Assembly: GCF_010450875.1 (NCBI RefSeq) | Contig: NZ_CP048422.1 | Location: 923,001 to 987,000 of the forward strand | Source of the DNA: Sphingomonas insulae | GTDB lineage: Bacteria; Pseudomonadota; Alphaproteobacteria; Sphingomonadales; Sphingomonadaceae | Length of the DNA stretch: 64,000 bases | Direction: 5' to 3' | Part shown: positions 45,053 to 51,050 of the stretch, one piece after another | How the letters are laid out: the number at the start of each line of letters is the position of its first letter | How positions within the stretch are numbered: the first letter of the stretch is position 1 | Position numbers and translations under genes: made by a program | The notes under the pieces: model-generated | Told to the model about the DNA's origin: nothing | What the model saw: the letters and a program-made list of their open reading frames with translations, nothing else | The model's database searches: none

Positions 45053-45182
45053 TGTCCTACACGCCGCCAATCTGGCAAAGCGCGGCCATGACCCATGCCG
45101 TCCGCCTGTCGCCGCCCGTTCCGCGGGCAGCGTGCGGAGGGCGCTTCCGAACCCGACGTACCGTCAACTTCGCCAACTTCCG
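45053..45182 (+). promoter_or_regulatory. 130-nt conserved element upstream of prfC (copy 1)
   Basis: From TGTCCTACAC to GCCAACTTCCG, 130 bases. The block upstream of rpmF (50921-51050, minus strand) has exactly the same length, identical first ten bases, a nearly identical last 25 bases, and an ATG at the same offset (36). Middle bases differ. The first five or so bases of shared GC-rich context (GCAACCCC) also lie upstream of this copy and in the 3' tandem units of prfC, so the box belongs to a larger repeat context around this gene. Confidence 0.75.
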
Positions 45183-45228
45183 CGTCGCTCGCCCGAGTCG
45201 CGCATCATTCCGAGACCCGATCCAGTGA
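45088..45228 (+). CDS. Possible 46-residue leader peptide with conserved VNF motif
   Basis: ATG at 45088, offset 36 in the 130-nt element, opens MTHAVRLSPPVPRAACGG... with FRTRRTVNFANFR at residues 20-32. The minus-strand copy (ATG at 51015) encodes FRSRRSVNFGNFR at the same residues. The base changes between the motifs are largely synonymous or conservative (Thr/Ser, Ala/Gly). Here the frame ends CAG TGA C right at the point where the conserved RF3 sequence begins in another frame. No strong ribosome-binding site is visible. A real small protein, leader peptide, or repeat-derived coincidence are all possible. Confidence 0.45.
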   Translation: MTHAVRLSPPVPRAACGGRFRTRRTVNFANFRVARPSRASFRDPIQ

Positions 45229-46750
45229 CCTCCCCCGCCGCACCTTCGCGATCATCTCCCACCCCGACGCCGGCAAGACTACGCTGACGGAAAAGCTGCT
45301 GTATTTCGGCGGTGCGATCCATCTGGCGGGCGAGGTGAAAGCGCGCGGGGCGAACCGCCGCGCCCGGTCGGACTGGATGAAGATCGAACAGCAGCGCGGC
45401 ATTTCGGTGACGTCGTCGGTGATGACGTTCGAACGCGACGGCATCACCTTCAACCTGCTCGACACGCCGGGCCACGAAGACTTCAGCGAAGATACCTATC
45501 GTACGCTGACCGCCGTCGATTCCGCGGTGATGGTGATCGACGCCGCCAAGGGAATCGAGCCGCAGACGCGCAAGTTGTTCGAGGTGTGCCGCCTGCGCAG
45601 CGTGCCGATTATCACCTTCGTCAACAAGGTCGATCGCGAAGGCCGCCCGGTGTTCGAACTGCTCGACGAGATCGCCGACATGCTCGCGCTCGACGTCTGC
45701 CCGATGAGCTGGCCGGTCGGCATGGGCGGCGAGTTCGAGGGCGTGCTCGATCTCGTCACCAACCGCATCAGCCGACCGGAGGGCGACAGCCGCGCCTTTC
45801 TCGGCAAGACCGAAGACGCGCCGGCCCTGTCCGAACGCTGGACGGAGGAGATCGAGCTGGCACAGGCCGGCTATGCCCCCTTCGATGCGGAGGCGTATCG
45901 CAACGGCGACCTGACACCGGTCTATTTCGGTTCCGCGCTCAAGGACTTTGGTGTCGCCGAACTGATCGGCGCGCTCGCCGAACACGCACCGCCGCCGCGC
46001 GCCCAGCCGGCCGAACCCGCCCCCGTCTCGCCCGACAACGACGAAGTCACCGGCTTCGTGTTCAAGGTCCAGGCGAACATGGACCCCAACCACCGCGACC
46101 GCATCGCCTTCATGCGGCTGTGCTCGGGCACCTTCAAGCGCGGCATGAAGCTGACCCCCTCGGGCAGCGGCAAGCCGATCGCGGTGCATTCGCCGATCCT
46201 GTTCTTCGCCCAGAATCGCGAAGTCGCGGACGAGGCGTTTCCCGGCGATATCATCGGCATCCCCAATCACGGCACGCTGCGCGTCGGCGATACCTTGTCG
46301 GAACGCGCCGACGTACGCTTCACCGGCCTGCCCAATTTCGCGCCCGAAATCCTGCGCCGCGTCCAGCTGAAGGATCCGACCAAGACCAAGCAGCTGCGCA
46401 AGGCGCTCGACGACATGGCCGAAGAGGGCGTGACGCAGGTCTTCTATCCGGAAATCGGGTCCAACTGGATCATCGGCGTCGTCGGCCAGCTCCAGCTCGA
46501 GGTGCTGCTGTCGCGGCTGGATGCGGAATATAAGGTCGCTGCCGGCCTCGAACCCGCGCCGTTCGAAACCGCGCGCTGGGTATCGGCCGAGGACCCGGCA
46601 GACCTCAAGCAGTTCATGGACCTCAACCGCTCCGCCATGGCCAAGGACCGCGACAATAACCCCGTTTTCCTCGCGAAGAGCGCCTGGGAAGTAAACTACA
46701 TCGCCGACCGCTACGCAAAGGTACGCTTCGCGGCGACTCGCGAACGGTAA
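45095..46750 (+). CDS. prfC: Peptide chain release factor 3
   Basis: RF3 is the translational GTPase that recycles RF1/RF2 after termination. The 551-residue protein has G motifs RRTFAIISHPDAGKTT (G1, about residue 48 on), DTPGHEDFSEDTYR, NKVDREGR, and SALKDFG. Conserved sequence begins only at DLPRRTF, about residue 45. The N-terminal 44 residues, from the only in-frame ATG (45095), lie inside the 130-nt repeat element in a different frame from its conserved peptide. No other usual start is present near DLPRR. The last codons also begin the 3' tandem repeat. The catalytic core is clear; the N-terminus is uncertain. Confidence 0.93.
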   Translation: MPSACRRPFRGQRAEGASEPDVPSTSPTSASLARVAHHSETRSSDLPRRTFAIISHPDAGKTTLTEKLLYFGGAIHLAGEVKARGANRRARSDWMKIEQQRGISVTSSVMTFERDGITFNLLDTPGHEDFSEDTYRTLTAVDSAVMVIDAAKGIEPQTRKLFEVCRLRSVPIITFVNKVDREGRPVFELLDEIADMLALDVCPMSWPVGMGGEFEGVLDLVTNRISRPEGDSRAFLGKTEDAPALSERWTEEIELAQAGYAPFDAEAYRNGDLTPVYFGSALKDFGVAELIGALAEHAPPPRAQPAEPAPVSPDNDEVTGFVFKVQANMDPNHRDRIAFMRLCSGTFKRGMKLTPSGSGKPIAVHSPILFFAQNREVADEAFPGDIIGIPNHGTLRVGDTLSERADVRFTGLPNFAPEILRRVQLKDPTKTKQLRKALDDMAEEGVTQVFYPEIGSNWIIGVVGQLQLEVLLSRLDAEYKVAAGLEPAPFETARWVSAEDPADLKQFMDLNRSAMAKDRDNNPVFLAKSAWEVNYIADRYAKVRFAATRER

Positions 46751-47372
46751 GCGACGACGGGACCCGGCCGGCACGCGCATGTTGGTCGGGACCGCGCGCA
46801 ACCCCATGACGTCGCAGGGCAAAACAGCGGCCACTGTCCTACACCGCTGACCGGCGTCAGCTAATCCTTGCCGACACCAGCTCTTTCTCATCATCGGAAA
46901 AAGTGGAAACGATCGCCGCCGCACATTTCCGTACGAACGAACCTCGGGGCGACTCGCGAACGGTAAGCGACGACGGGACCCGGCCGGCAGGGAGGTCTTG
47001 GTCGGGATCGCACGCAAACCTGATGCTGCAGGCAAAACGGCGGCCACTGTCCTACACTTCTGACCGGCGCGAGCTGACCCTTGCCGACACCGGCTCTTTC
47101 TCATCATCGTCGAAACGGAGACAATCGCCGCCGTACGTTGCCGTACGAATAGCCCTCGGAGCGACTCGCGAATGGTAAGCGACGACGGGACCCGATCGGC
47201 AGGGCGTGTTGGTCGGAACCGCGCGCAACCCATGACGTTGCAGGGCAAAATGGCGGCCACTGTCCTACAACGCCGACCGGCGCTGGCTGATCCTCGCTGA
47301 CACCCGCTCTTTCTCATCATCGCCAAAATGAAAACGATCGCCGCCGCACGTTTCCGTACGAGTGCCCCGGTT
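46733..47372. repeat. Three tandem ~213-bp repeats, first copy including the prfC 3' end
   Basis: GCGACTCGCGAA(C/T)GGTAAGCGACG is found at 46733, 46949 and 47161. TGTCCTACA(C/A) follows at 46835, 47048 and 47261, exactly 213 bases apart. CTCTTTCTCATCATCG and GATCGCCGCCG.AC.TT.CCGTACGA recur in each. The first copy takes in the last 17 coding bases and the stop codon of prfC, so the unit seems to have been duplicated from the gene's end. Short open frames inside the array do not look like genes. I see no coding function. Confidence 0.9.
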
Positions 47373-47708
47373 GTTCATGTTGTTCATGTTGCTCCGCCTG
47401 CCGCCGTCCGCGTCGTCGCGCTGATCTATCGTGGTCCGGATCGACCGTCGTTCGACGCCGTGGTGCCTATGGATTGCCGCAAACGTTGTGGCCCGATGCC
47501 GCACACGAAGGGCTGGCCCGATCCGATCAACGGATAAGTACGGACGCCATCATCCCCGTTCACGCAGCGGGAAGACCGCTCGGACGCCGGCAAGGCAGCG
47601 CTTCGTGCAGAGGCTCGCGAACACCGGCCGCGGATCGTGAATCGGGCCACCTTGGTCGCGCAACGGACCGACGGGCGAGCGGTCGGCTGACGTCGACAGC
47701 GGCGTCGC
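47373..47708. other. Gap before merR without recognisable gene
   Basis: 336 bases between the tandem array and the convergent MerR gene. TTGTTCATGTTGTTCATGTTG at its start is a short direct repeat (TTGTTCATG twice). No tRNA, terminator with T run, or gene was recognised. Confidence 0.5.
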
Positions 47709-48068
47709 TCAGGCGGGGTGCTCGTCCTGGCGCAGCGCCTGCGCCAGCTGGTCGCGGATCGTCCGCAGCCGCCGTATCGGATCGATGCCGGTATCGGGCG
47801 CCACCGGGGCCGACTGGCGGCGGTCACCCAGCAATTGCTGCACGCCGCGCACGGTATAGCCGTCGCGGTTGAGCAGGCCGTCGATGCGACGGATCAGCGC
47901 GACGTCCTCGGGCCGGTAATAGCGGCGGTTGCCGGCGCGTGTGACCGGGCGCAACTGGGGAAAACGCGTTTCCCAATAGCGCAAGATATGCTGGGGAAGG
48001 CCGGTTTCCTCGGAAACCTCCCCGATCGTCCTGAATGCTCCGCTCGCCTTTGGCGTGCCGGAGGGCAC
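47709..48068 (-). CDS. MerR family transcriptional regulator
   Basis: A 119-residue DNA-binding protein with a winged Mer[35 protein letters not shown], then [34 protein letters not shown]. This is the short MerR type that follows ihfA in many Alphaproteobacteria (plsX-fabH-ihfA-merR). The effector domain after the linker is short, so the signal is unknown. It starts five bases after the ihfA stop (ihfA ends at 48074, merR starts at 48068). Confidence 0.9.
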
Positions 48069-48073
48069 CGGGG

Positions 48074-48373
48074 TCAGCTCGATGTGACGATGCGCTCGCG
48101 CATCATCTGGCTGGCACGGAAAGTGAGTACGCGGCGCGGCGCGATCGGCACCTCGATGCCCGTCTTGGGGTTGCGGCCGATCCGTTCACCCTTGTCGCGC
48201 AGGACGAAGGTGCCGAAGCCCGAGATCTTGACGTTTTCGCCACGCGACAAGGCTTCGCACATTTCGGTCAGGATTTGTTCGACGATCTTGGCCGAATCCG
48301 TCCGAGACAAGCCGATCTGACGATGCAGTGCTTCCGAAAGGTCGGCCCGCGTCAACGTGCCCGCGGTAGTCAT
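48074..48373 (-). CDS. ihfA: Integration host factor, alpha subunit
   Basis: A 99-residue DNA-bending protein; heterodimer with Ihf[33 protein letters not shown], then [32 protein letters not shown], in which the beta arm and intercalating Pro occur. The open frame continues 15 codons upstream, but family starts fit ATG at 48373. It lies directly before merR in the fatty-acid operon. It is a global regulator and can assist GTA and recombination, which is not shown here. Confidence 0.95.
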
Positions 48374-48496
48374 CAACACGCTTGCCCCACTCCATTCACT
48401 AGAATGCTCCTCAAGCAAGCTACACCAGAGAAGAAATGTCCGAAAGTGACTTTCTTGCGTTGATGCGGCACAATATGCGCCTGGCGGGCCTATGTG

Positions 48497-49465
48497 TCAA
48501 AAACGGATGACGGCGGCGCCCCAGGTGAAACCGCCGCCCATCGCCTCCAGCACGACGATCTGGTTCTGGACGATCCGTCCGTCGCGCACCGCGGTGTCGA
48601 GGGCCAGCGGCACGGATGCGGCCGACGTATTGGCGTGGCGGTCGACCGTCACCACCACCTTGTCTGCGGGCAGACCCAGCTTGCGGCTGGTGGCATCGAG
48701 GATGCGGGCGTTGGCCTGGTGCGGGACCACCCAGTCGACGTCGTCGGGGGTCAGGCCGGCGATCACCAGCGTTTCCTGCATGACCGCGGCGAGGTTGACG
48801 ACGGCGTGGCGAAACACCTCGCGCCCCTTCATCCGCAGCTTGCCGACGGTACCGGTCGTCGATGGTCCGCCATCGACATAGAGCAGTTCGTTGTGGCGGC
48901 CATCGGCGTGCAGCTTGGTGGCGAGGATGCCGCGACCGGTGTCCGCGTCGCTCTCCTGCCCCTCCAGCACGATCGCGCCGGCGCCGTCGCCGAACAGGAC
49001 CGCAGTGGTGCGGTCTTCCCAATCGAGGATGCGGCTGAACGTCTCGGCGCCGATCACCAGCGCGCGGCGATGGATGCCGGTGCGCAGCATCGCATCGGCG
49101 ACCTGCACCGCATAGAGGAAGCCCGAGCACACGGCGGCCACGTCGAAGGCGACGCAATCGTCGATGCCCAGCATCGCCTGCACCTTGGTGGCGGTGGCCG
49201 GAAAGGTCTGGTCGGGGGTCGCGGTGGCGAGGACGATCAGGTCGATGTCCTGCGCGACGAGGCCCGACGACGCGAGCGCGCCGCGGCATGCCTCCGCCGC
49301 GAGCGTCGAGGTGGTTTCGTGCGGTTGTGCGATGTGGCGGAAGCGGATGCCGGTCCGCTCGACGATCCATTCGTCGCTGGTGTCCAGCCGATCGGCGAGA
49401 TCGGCGTTCGACACCCGGTTCTCGGGCAGCGCCGATCCGGTGCCACGGACGACCGAGCGGATCAT
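48497..49465 (-). CDS. fabH: Beta-ketoacyl-ACP synthase III
   Basis: Starts fatty acid synthesis by condensing acetyl-CoA with malonyl-ACP. The 322-residue protein has the nucleophile Cys113 in [13 protein letters not shown], the His in [12 protein letters not shown], and the Asn in [14 protein letters not shown]. Length and spacing are standard. Start overlaps the plsX stop by ATGA (49462-49465), so plsX and fabH are coupled. A 120-base gap follows before ihfA. Confidence 0.97.
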
Positions 49466-50493
49466 GCGGCCCTCTTCTCGAAATTGCCCAGGTCGTCGGC
49501 GATCCGGCGCGTCAGGTCGGCGCGCACCATCTTGGCGGCATTGCCGATCGCGGTGGCGACGCCGCGTTCATTGGCGCTGCCGTGGCTCTTTACGACAATG
49601 CCGTTGAGGCCCAGGAAGACCGCGCCATTGTGGTTGTTGGGATCGAGGTGGTCGCGCAGCAATTCGGTGGCGGGGCGCGAGATCAGGAAGCCGACCTTCG
49701 AGCGGACCGACGAGCTGAACGCGCGCTTGAGCAGGTCGGCGACGAAGCGCGCGGTGCCTTCTGCGGTCTTCAGCGCGATGTTGCCGGCAAAGCCGTCGCA
49801 GACGATCACGTCATGGTTGCCGCGGGCGAGCTGGTCGCCCTCGACGAAGCCGGTGAAGGTCAGCGGCAGGTGCGACTGGCCCCTGAGAACCGCGGCGGCG
49901 TCGCGAATCTCGTCGGTGCCCTTCTGGTCTTCGCTGCCGATGTTGAGCAGCGCGACGCGGGGGCTGTCGAGGTCCATGATCGTGCGCGCATAGGCCGCGC
50001 CCATCACCGCGAACTGGACGAGATTGCGCGCGTCCACCTCGGTATTCGCACCCAGGTCGAGCATGACGACGTCGTTGTCGCCGAGCGTCGGCAGCGGCGC
50101 GGCGAGCGCCGGACGGTCGATGCCGGGAAGGGTGCGCAGCGCGAGCTTCGCCATCGCCATCAACGCGCCGGTGTTGCCCGACGACACGGCGGCACCGGCG
50201 CGGCCCTGCTTCACCAGATCGATGGCGATCCCCATCGACGTGGTCTTGGACCGGCGGATCGCCTGGCTGGGCCGGTCGTTCGACGCGACCGTTTCCGGCG
50301 CGTGGACGATCTCGCTATGCTGGCTGAGATTCGGGTGAGACTTCAGTTCCTCGCGAACCGCGGCCTCGTCGCCCACCAGGAAGAAGCGCATGCCCTCGAA
50401 CCGCCGGCGTGCCGCAGCGACGCCAGCGAGCATGACCGCCAGCCCCTTGTCGCCGCCCATCGCATCGACGGCGATCCAGGAATTGTCGGGCAT
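49462..50493 (-). CDS. plsX: Phosphate acyltransferase PlsX
   Basis: Makes acyl phosphate from acyl-ACP for phospholipid synthesis. The 343-residue protein shows [20 protein letters not shown] at the start, [14 protein letters not shown] near residue 110, and [13 protein letters not shown] around 200, all typical. It is in operon order rpmF-plsX-fabH-ihfA-merR, 35 bases after rpmF and overlapping fabH by four bases. The product is consumed by PlsY, which is not in the window. Confidence 0.97.
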
Positions 50494-50528
50494 GGTTCAG
50501 CGCTTATCCGGATGGGAGGGGAGGGGGA

Positions 50529-50708
50529 TTAACCCTCGACCGAAACGATCTCGCGGCCGTTGTAGTGGCCGCATGCGGTGCACAGGTTGTGCGGACGCTT
50601 CAGCTCGCCACAGTTCGGGCATTCCTGGAACGACGCGATGGTCAGCGAGTCGTGACCACGACGCATGCCGCGCTTGGAGGGAGAGGTCTTTCGCTTGGGG
50701 ACGGCCAT
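50529..50708 (-). CDS. rpmF: Ribosomal protein bL32, zinc-ribbon type
   Basis: A 59-residue 50S protein: [20 protein letters not shown] then [24 protein letters not shown], with two CxxC pairs for zinc, as in the Zn-containing form. The frame is open upstream but MAVPKRKTS is the normal start. First gene of the operon with plsX and fabH; a promoter-like sequence lies about 120-150 bases upstream. The second copy of the 130-nt element lies further upstream in the same orientation. Confidence 0.96.
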
Positions 50709-50830
50709 TTCGGCACCTTGTTCTAGAAAATCGGCTTGCGGAAATCCGATGAGCCCGACGGGACGTGCAGGCAACCGACGAAGCCGGCTGCCGGACGCCA
50801 CCGATAACCGGACGCATCGCGAAGCGCGGG

Positions 50831-50858
50831 CCTATAGCGAATTTCCGGGCTGTTGCAA
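50831..50858 (-). promoter_or_regulatory. Putative promoter of the rpmF-plsX operon
   Basis: Read on the minus strand: TTGCAA, 16 bases, TATAGG. This is a reasonable sigma-70-like pair about 130 bases before rpmF. A similar TATAGG -10 is found before the aminotransferase gene. The wider gap 50709-51063 contains nothing else besides the 130-nt element. Confidence 0.4.
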
Positions 50859-50920
50859 GCTTCACGGGCGCAAGGGCGAGTCGGATATCGGCTGCGACGG
50901 GGGTGTCCGAGTCGTCCGGC

Positions 50921-51050
50921 CGGAAGTTGCCGAAGTTGACACTACGTCGCGACCGGAACGCGTTCCCGCCCGGTGCCGCAGCGCGCGACAGGAGAGGGAA
51001 GCGAGGATCGACCATAGTGCAGCGTTACACGACCGGCGCCGTGTAGGACA
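50921..51050 (-). promoter_or_regulatory. 130-nt conserved element upstream of rpmF (copy 2)
   Basis: On the minus strand from TGTCCTACAC (51050) to GGCAACTTCCG (50921): same length as the prfC copy, the same first ten bases, ATG at offset 36 (51015), and the same VNF.NFR-coding last 35 bases. The reading frame from this ATG stays open for 172 codons, running through the promoter and over rpmF, so it is not a simple leader peptide here. The element stands between a divergent MBL gene and the rpmF operon in sense orientation to the operon. Confidence 0.7.

Follow-up and report, generated by a model that had tools for sequence, protein, structure and literature searches.

Two blocks in a 64 000-nt stretch of the Sphingomonas insulae chromosome (hereafter the window; C4:923001-987000 of genome G000, 3.74 Mb), which lie upstream of prfC and rpmF, are, judged by their sequences, copies of a dispersed promoter-and-leader element. 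A complete copy joins a promoter-like box (TGTCCTACA) to a core of two 9-nt direct repeats located 104–140 nt from the box. We propose that the cores are operators of regulators resembling the small subunit of phage terminase (TerS), placed in transcribed leaders, where the bound regulator would act on elongating RNA polymerase and a short upstream open reading frame (uORF) would aid passage. We infer binding, start sites and effect from genome comparisons and assign this combined reading a probability of roughly 0.6. Cores occur in several sequence variants, here termed dialects; both window copies carry dialect A. Literature searches, judged by their result entries, returned no description of the element or its regulator.

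Copies, promoter-like boxes and leaders of the element

The dialect-A core pattern (GTGTCAACTTCGNCAACTTCCG, ≤3 mismatches) matched 27 times in G000 and never in its reversed control, so the resemblance between the two window blocks is not due to chance. A preliminary description of the window had noted their shared box, a fixed ATG spacing (35 nt past the box start in both) and near-identical 3' ends; all three hold (Table 1), and the pair is real, but it represents two of 27 copies genome-wide rather than a unique pair. The exact block length of 130 nt does not generalize, as the box-to-core distance was 104–120 nt in 18 of 20 box-led G000 copies and 139–140 nt in two. Matches to the combined box-plus-ATG pattern exceeded the control in G000 (22 vs. 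1) and in the relatives G010 (21 vs. 0), G416 (27 vs. 2) and G411 (16 vs. 0). Across 147 genomes of the order, at least five such matches were present in 15/64 Sphingomonadaceae and 3/83 other genomes, the remainder being near control.

The conserved end had been read as a VNFxNFR peptide signal, that is, as the end of a leader peptide or small protein, a reading in agreement with the VNF frame of both window copies. The frame across this end varies, however: among the 18 G000 copies with a box (≤1 mismatch) and an ATG at offset 33–39, the core was read in three frames (VNF 9, STS 5, RQL 4). It is also coding in a non-VNF frame inside atpG and at the end of a helix-turn-helix (HTH) gene, and in G010, in that genome's own dialect, it lies within the linker of lexA (identified by Pfam). 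Nucleotides are thus kept and residues are not. We rejected the VNF peptide as a conserved product on the frame counts; since the core dialect moreover differs between species, a conserved peptide or small protein is extremely unlikely. By eye, cores were also seen inside lexA of further relatives (L070, L071, L082, L084; the G010 locus is L254).

A role as a 5' regulatory element, which had also been suggested, is well supported by the promoter-like box, by preferential conservation of the core (below) and by orientation: the next gene was co-oriented in 20/20 box-led dialect-A copies of G000. Genes outside named families were called with a simple codon-composition script rather than a trained caller, and many gene names in relatives were read from translations by eye. 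Downstream genes include nadB, glnB, infA, sufS, ctaA, rpsA, dnaG, glnD and thrS, as well as thiD, a MATE transporter gene, thrC, telA, a trehalose-phosphatase gene, pyrB, purM, prfC and rpmF. The proposed link to translation genes covers only part of a wider housekeeping set. Likewise, "ordinary dispersed repeat", the alternative named beforehand, is an incomplete answer, because the reading frame is lost but box spacing and orientation are kept.

The arrangement of the box (leader forms TTTCCTACA/TGTCCTACA) resembles a promoter. Position 24 past the box start was A/T in 0.94–1.00 of copies in all five families examined, and position 23 in 0.88–0.93 of copies in G010, G038 and dialect C, but in only 0.40 in dialect A and 0.57 in dialect B. 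A TAnnnT at positions 23–28 would leave a 17-nt spacer to TGTCCT and put the ATG at the expected transcript start; this −10 element stands out in G010, G038 and dialect C and is weak in dialect A. An ATG start occurred at offset 33–39 in 18/20 box-led G000 copies (box ≤1 mismatch; background 0.10 per window, p 2e-16) and in 16/17 G010 copies; the corresponding counts were 0/7 in dialect B, 0/9 in dialect C and 5/14 in G038. A boxA-like CTCTTT was found in the leaders of dialect B (4/7) and G038 (9/14), compared with 1/20 in dialect A, 1/9 in dialect C and 0/17 in G010. Leaders L223, L227, L221, L011 and L096 carry boxA-like GCTCTTTGA/GCTCTTTGCC, as if antitermination stood in for translation.

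The uORF frequently ends on the start of the gene that follows. Its TGA overlapped an in-frame gene start (NTGA) in 19/35 copies overall, against 1/35 and 2/35 in shifted frames. For dialect A of G000 the count was 9/19 (one and one when the same DNA was shifted by one or two bases), and for other genomes 10/16 (zero and one). These counts cover 19/27 G000 loci and 16/18 others; at the remaining loci the box, the ATG or a called gene in the same direction was missing. The nine coupled G000 genes are nadB, glnB, ctaA, a biotin carboxylase gene, glnD, a LutA-like gene, thiD, telA and purM, and at three further G000 loci the uORF is fused in frame with thrC, the trehalose-phosphatase gene and pyrB. 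In G010, the uORF ends at the core in 9/17 copies, and in at least two copies (L244, L248) an ATGA provides the coupling (by eye).

TerS-like proteins and core dialects

One dialect-A core, at C4:723129, forms the 3' end of the gene for a 253-aa HTH protein, HTH-A (C4:722406-723164). G000 encodes three such paralogs (A, B and C), each gene with a tandem at its own 3' end. The family was detected in 95/119 Sphingomonadaceae genomes (E 1e-8) and 227/295 genomes of the genus (E 1e-10). Judged by eye, the 3' tandem was present in ~21/26 of the nearest relatives (L334-L359; two with diverged units), but in only 4/26 distant relatives (L308-L333; for at least four of these, the position of the gene was not properly established). 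The proteins matched PHROG 4044, terminase small subunit (HTH-A E 1.9e-18, G038 8.9e-26, G411 5.4e-19). Pfam searches with four HTH proteins and NCBIfam searches with two gave sub-cutoff matches only, with no curated family and no catalytic domain, and the PDB held no sequence relative at E 1. In the AlphaFold model (mean predicted local distance difference test (pLDDT) score 82; recognition helix 68–76), the best structural match was Sf6 TerS, with a Z of 8.2 that for a helical model is suggestive rather than decisive. The core is very probably the site of HTH-A.

Tandems of ~9 nt recur downstream of the box in other genomes, in other letters (GTAGCTTTT in G010, GGTCCATGC in G416, GTGACTTTT in G038). 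The G010 core had 19 copies against none in the control, 17 of them with a box, and by eye these lie largely at genes other than those in G000. G000 itself holds three dialects, with 27 (A), 18 (B) and 10 (C) matches against zero, one and zero in controls (B, GAGACTTTCGTGACTTTCG, two mismatches; C, TTGTTCATGTTGTTCAACTTCG, three mismatches). Dialect C was first predicted from the 3' end of its HTH paralog gene and afterwards found genome-wide; nine of its 10 matches have a box (≤2 mismatches), and the tenth is the HTH gene itself. G008, with a single HTH match, gave no dialect-B match. Related bacteria thus seem, from these patterns, to run several protein-site pairs, each with its own dialect. 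By eye, the G411 genome alone seems to contain three or four core dialects (L209-L235, L265, L271).

Protein and site also vary jointly. We hand-read 39 protein-site unit pairs, 36 of them non-redundant. Among these 36, Arg73 in the recognition helix was paired with C at unit base 5 in 10/12 cases and other residues in 0/24 (Fisher 2.6e-7), and residues 67, 68 and 69 covaried with bases 4, 2 and 3. L351 and L353 showed a single visible unit, entered twice; L342, L354, L355 and L358 had diverged units; L271 agrees with C at base 5 given a one-base shift. L277 (register unclear) and L309, L311, L313, L268 and L359 (no tandem recognised) were left out.

When all residues were ranked, residue 69 came first, but 92, 84, 132 and 95, outside the helix, were also high, and residue 123, which carries little information, had the top z-scores; this is the pattern to be expected where relatedness and rare residues play a part. 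When the tree was computed with the helix left out, the Arg/C label required four changes, at least two of them on well-supported branches, so that few independent switches underlie the association. Comparison of the paired sequences gives real support for a joint change of regulator and site, but with few switches behind it. The cores that lack a box were sense to the gene that they follow or that contains them in 13/13 cases inspected in G000 (six A, seven B).

Proposed mode of action and competing explanations

In the mechanism that we propose, RNA polymerase would start from the TGTCCTACA box, with TGTCCT as −35, a 17-nt spacer and a weak −10 element, and the transcript would begin at or near the AUG, opening a short, leaderless ORF. 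The tandem 9-bp repeats lie about 75 bp inside the presumed transcribed region and are the putative DNA site of HTH-A, which is encoded elsewhere on the chromosome. By standing as a roadblock before the elongating polymerase, bound HTH-A would adjust expression of the gene downstream. A ribosome that follows closely on the leaderless ORF would help polymerase to pass, a part that in other dialects may often fall to the boxA-like sequence, and the uORF stop on the gene start codon would hand the ribosome over. Taken separately, the idea that the core acts on polymerase during elongation and that the uORF assists is a tentative proposal.

Alternatively, the core could act at the RNA level: the tandem 9-mer of leaders, intercistronic regions and 3' ends would be read by a small RNA (sRNA) or by a protein that binds RNA, perhaps the TerS-like one. 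The uniform sense orientation of box-less cores favours this, although it fits RNA action and a polar effect on polymerase alike. Dialect-A cores without a box are found at groES|groEL and glyS|ppdK, inside atpG and after recA, and the inspected set also includes dnaK|dnaJ and rpoA|rplQ. As side observations, box-less cores sit between the chaperone cistrons dnaK|dnaJ and groES|groEL in the set L294, L300, L304 and L028, which also includes rpoA|rplQ and a core before an AAA protein read as hslU.

The evidence against the RNA-level explanation comes from the protein and from GANTC sites beside the core. The covarying residues sit in the HTH recognition helix, and no antisense copy stood out in a pattern search, which a partly paired sRNA would escape. 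GANTC occurred ≤30 nt past the core in 12/27 dialect-A copies of G000 (0.7 expected), 5/10 in G008 and 11/19 in G010; in dialect B, dialect C and G038 it occurred in 1/14, 0/10 and 0/15. The distances of 29 such sites fell at 4–8 nt (14), 12 nt (one) and 15–20 nt (14), giving clusters ~10–11 nt apart; the statistic for periodicity is level between 10 and 13, so that "one helical turn" holds only approximately. The form CGAMTCR accounted for 28/29 sites and was found in 28/47 box-led vs. 0/9 box-less copies (L009-L035, L037-L060, L237-L255); at the 28 ends of HTH-A genes that were inspected, none followed the core. Because the sites cluster by distance and accompany box-led copies only, DNA is favoured over RNA as the level of action, and the RNA-level explanation is unlikely.

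PMC7987155 quotes YGAKTCG as the motif of GcrA, and CGAMTCR is its reverse complement. By comparison with the GcrA/CcrM methylated promoters described in that paper, the elements share a GANTC in extended form, but here it stands beside the core, well downstream of the promoter, and in nadB inside the coding start. A link between the cassette GANTC and CcrM/GcrA is possible.

A further explanation treats the copies as a non-autonomous mobile element, that is, HTH units that lost their interior but kept the common promoter, ATG and 3' tandem and then spread, some of them being taken into service as promoters. Both ends are indeed common to HTH genes and short elements, and at the apparent ung locus of Aurantiacibacter xanthus (L144), promoter, ATG and core are present without an HTH gene (by eye). 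A convergent gene is faced by 7/15 inspected G038 units and 8/14 inspected dialect-B units (of 31 and 18 matches, respectively). The mobile-repeat idea of the preliminary description also gains some support from leader likeness within genomes, with a mean identity of 0.65 vs. 0.52 shuffled for 17 leaders in G010 and 0.59 vs. 0.54 for 27 in G000. Against mobility, the HTH protein has no detected catalytic domain, and 9/10 G008 core-A sites lie at loci orthologous to G000 sites. Mean identity between these two genomes was 0.90 in the core, 0.72 in the leader and 0.71 after the core, and the core was better kept than the leader in 7/9 orthologous loci (exceptions, recA with 0.71 vs. 0.86, and glyS|ppdK, equal). 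Leader likeness and core conservation together suggest that elements were copied and that the core then tends to stay; spread and later function are compatible. As a full account, the mobile element is quite unlikely.

The TerS-like sequence and model, and the presence of a site at the protein's own gene, would also suit pac-like packaging sites of a TerS from a prophage or gene transfer agent. Against this, the sites are integral to promoters, leaders and the gaps between cistrons, the uORF stops on the start of the gene, and HTH-A in G000 has an acetyltransferase-like ORF upstream and a uracil-DNA glycosylase gene one ORF downstream. A scan of viral contigs, limited to two peptide patterns, gave one distant relative (31% identity), followed by a 547-aa ORF. 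We consider packaging sites very unlikely.

Known systems and layout of the window

In pac phages, the packaging site lies near the TerS gene itself, as the 3' tandems do here. The proteins appear to share with phage TerS (PHROG 4044, Sf6 gp1) an HTH plus helices and a beta hairpin, but differ in being chromosomal, often with several paralogs per genome, and in having 10–31 dispersed matches for each dialect, associated with promoters or the ends of genes. RAYT/REP systems likewise match a domesticated mobile-element protein to dispersed, lineage-specific short sites; here, by contrast, no nuclease domain was found, and the sites are tandem direct repeats instead of palindromes, accompanied by a promoter and in many cases by a leaderless ORF. 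Translation-coupled leader ORFs and leaderless mRNAs provide precedents for a short ORF that ends on the start codon of the next gene, whereas the elements described here have no conserved frame or peptide and add a fixed promoter and a protein-site core. Roadblock operators downstream of a start resemble the proposed arrangement, with a site ~75 bp inside the putative transcribed region, but the regulator would here be of the phage-packaging type. A transcription start-site map has reportedly been published for Novosphingobium aromaticivorans.

More broadly, sphingomonads might maintain parallel networks of domesticated TerS-like proteins, one dialect per paralog, that gate polymerase with a uORF or boxA deciding passage. 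A dialect switch would then be a joint change of the helix and all its sites, and the HTH-A type may read CcrM methylation via GANTC. We offer this wider scheme as speculation. If the proposal is true, a fold from phage DNA packaging has become a multi-paralog family of chromosomal site-readers at core genes (rpsA, infA, prfC, glnB, nadB, purM, groEL, atpD). Dozens of natural protein-site pairs would be at hand for reading a recognition code, together with a test bed for the joint specificity change of a whole site set. In-frame or overlapping ORFs at some sphingomonad gene starts, a source of start-codon misannotation, would then also be accounted for.

Rfam, applied to the window at the gathering score, reported only two tRNAs and no riboswitch or RNA-leader family for the element. 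The features of both copies are listed in Table 1.

Table 1. Positions of the two element copies and adjoining genes, counted from the first letter of the window
Feature	Position	Strand	Basis
Copy 1, box TGTCCTACAC, proposed extended −35 of leader promoter	45053..45062	+	sequence
Copy 1, −10 place, reads CAAAGC	45076-45081	+	sequence
Copy 1, uORF, 46 codons, VNF frame, ATG at expected transcript start	45088..45228	+	
Copy 1, core GACGTACCGTCAACTTCGCCAACTTCCGCG, direct repeat of two 9-nt units, proposed site of HTH-A	45155..45184	+	
Copy 1, GAGTC (GANTC), 12 nt past 22-nt core match	45195..45199	+	
prfC (RF3) ORF, frame extends back into leader	45095..46750	+	RF3_C, E 4.4e-45
Copy 2, box TGTCCTACAC	51041..51050	-	
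Copy 2, −10 candidate TAACGC	51027-51022	-	
Copy 2, uORF, 172 codons, VNF frame, crosses rpmF out of frame, stop just before plsX	50497..51015	-	
Copy 2, core GACGTAGTGTCAACTTCGGCAACTTCCGGC	50919..50948	-	
Copy 2, GACTC (GANTC), 7 nt past 22-nt core match	50909..50913	-	sequence
rpmF (L32)	50529..50708	-	Ribosomal_L32p
plsX, after rpmF	49462-50493	-	FA_synthesis
fabH, after plsX	48497-49465	-	ACP_syn_III

Both window copies depart from the stop-on-start pattern. The C-run before prfC (window 45226-45245) has 5 C, vs. 6 C in G008 (L050) and G127 (L074). With five, the coupled GTG/TTG start falls out of frame and the prfC ORF extends back to the ATG at 45095, so prfC was counted as uncoupled; the difference may be either a genuine change or a base-calling error.

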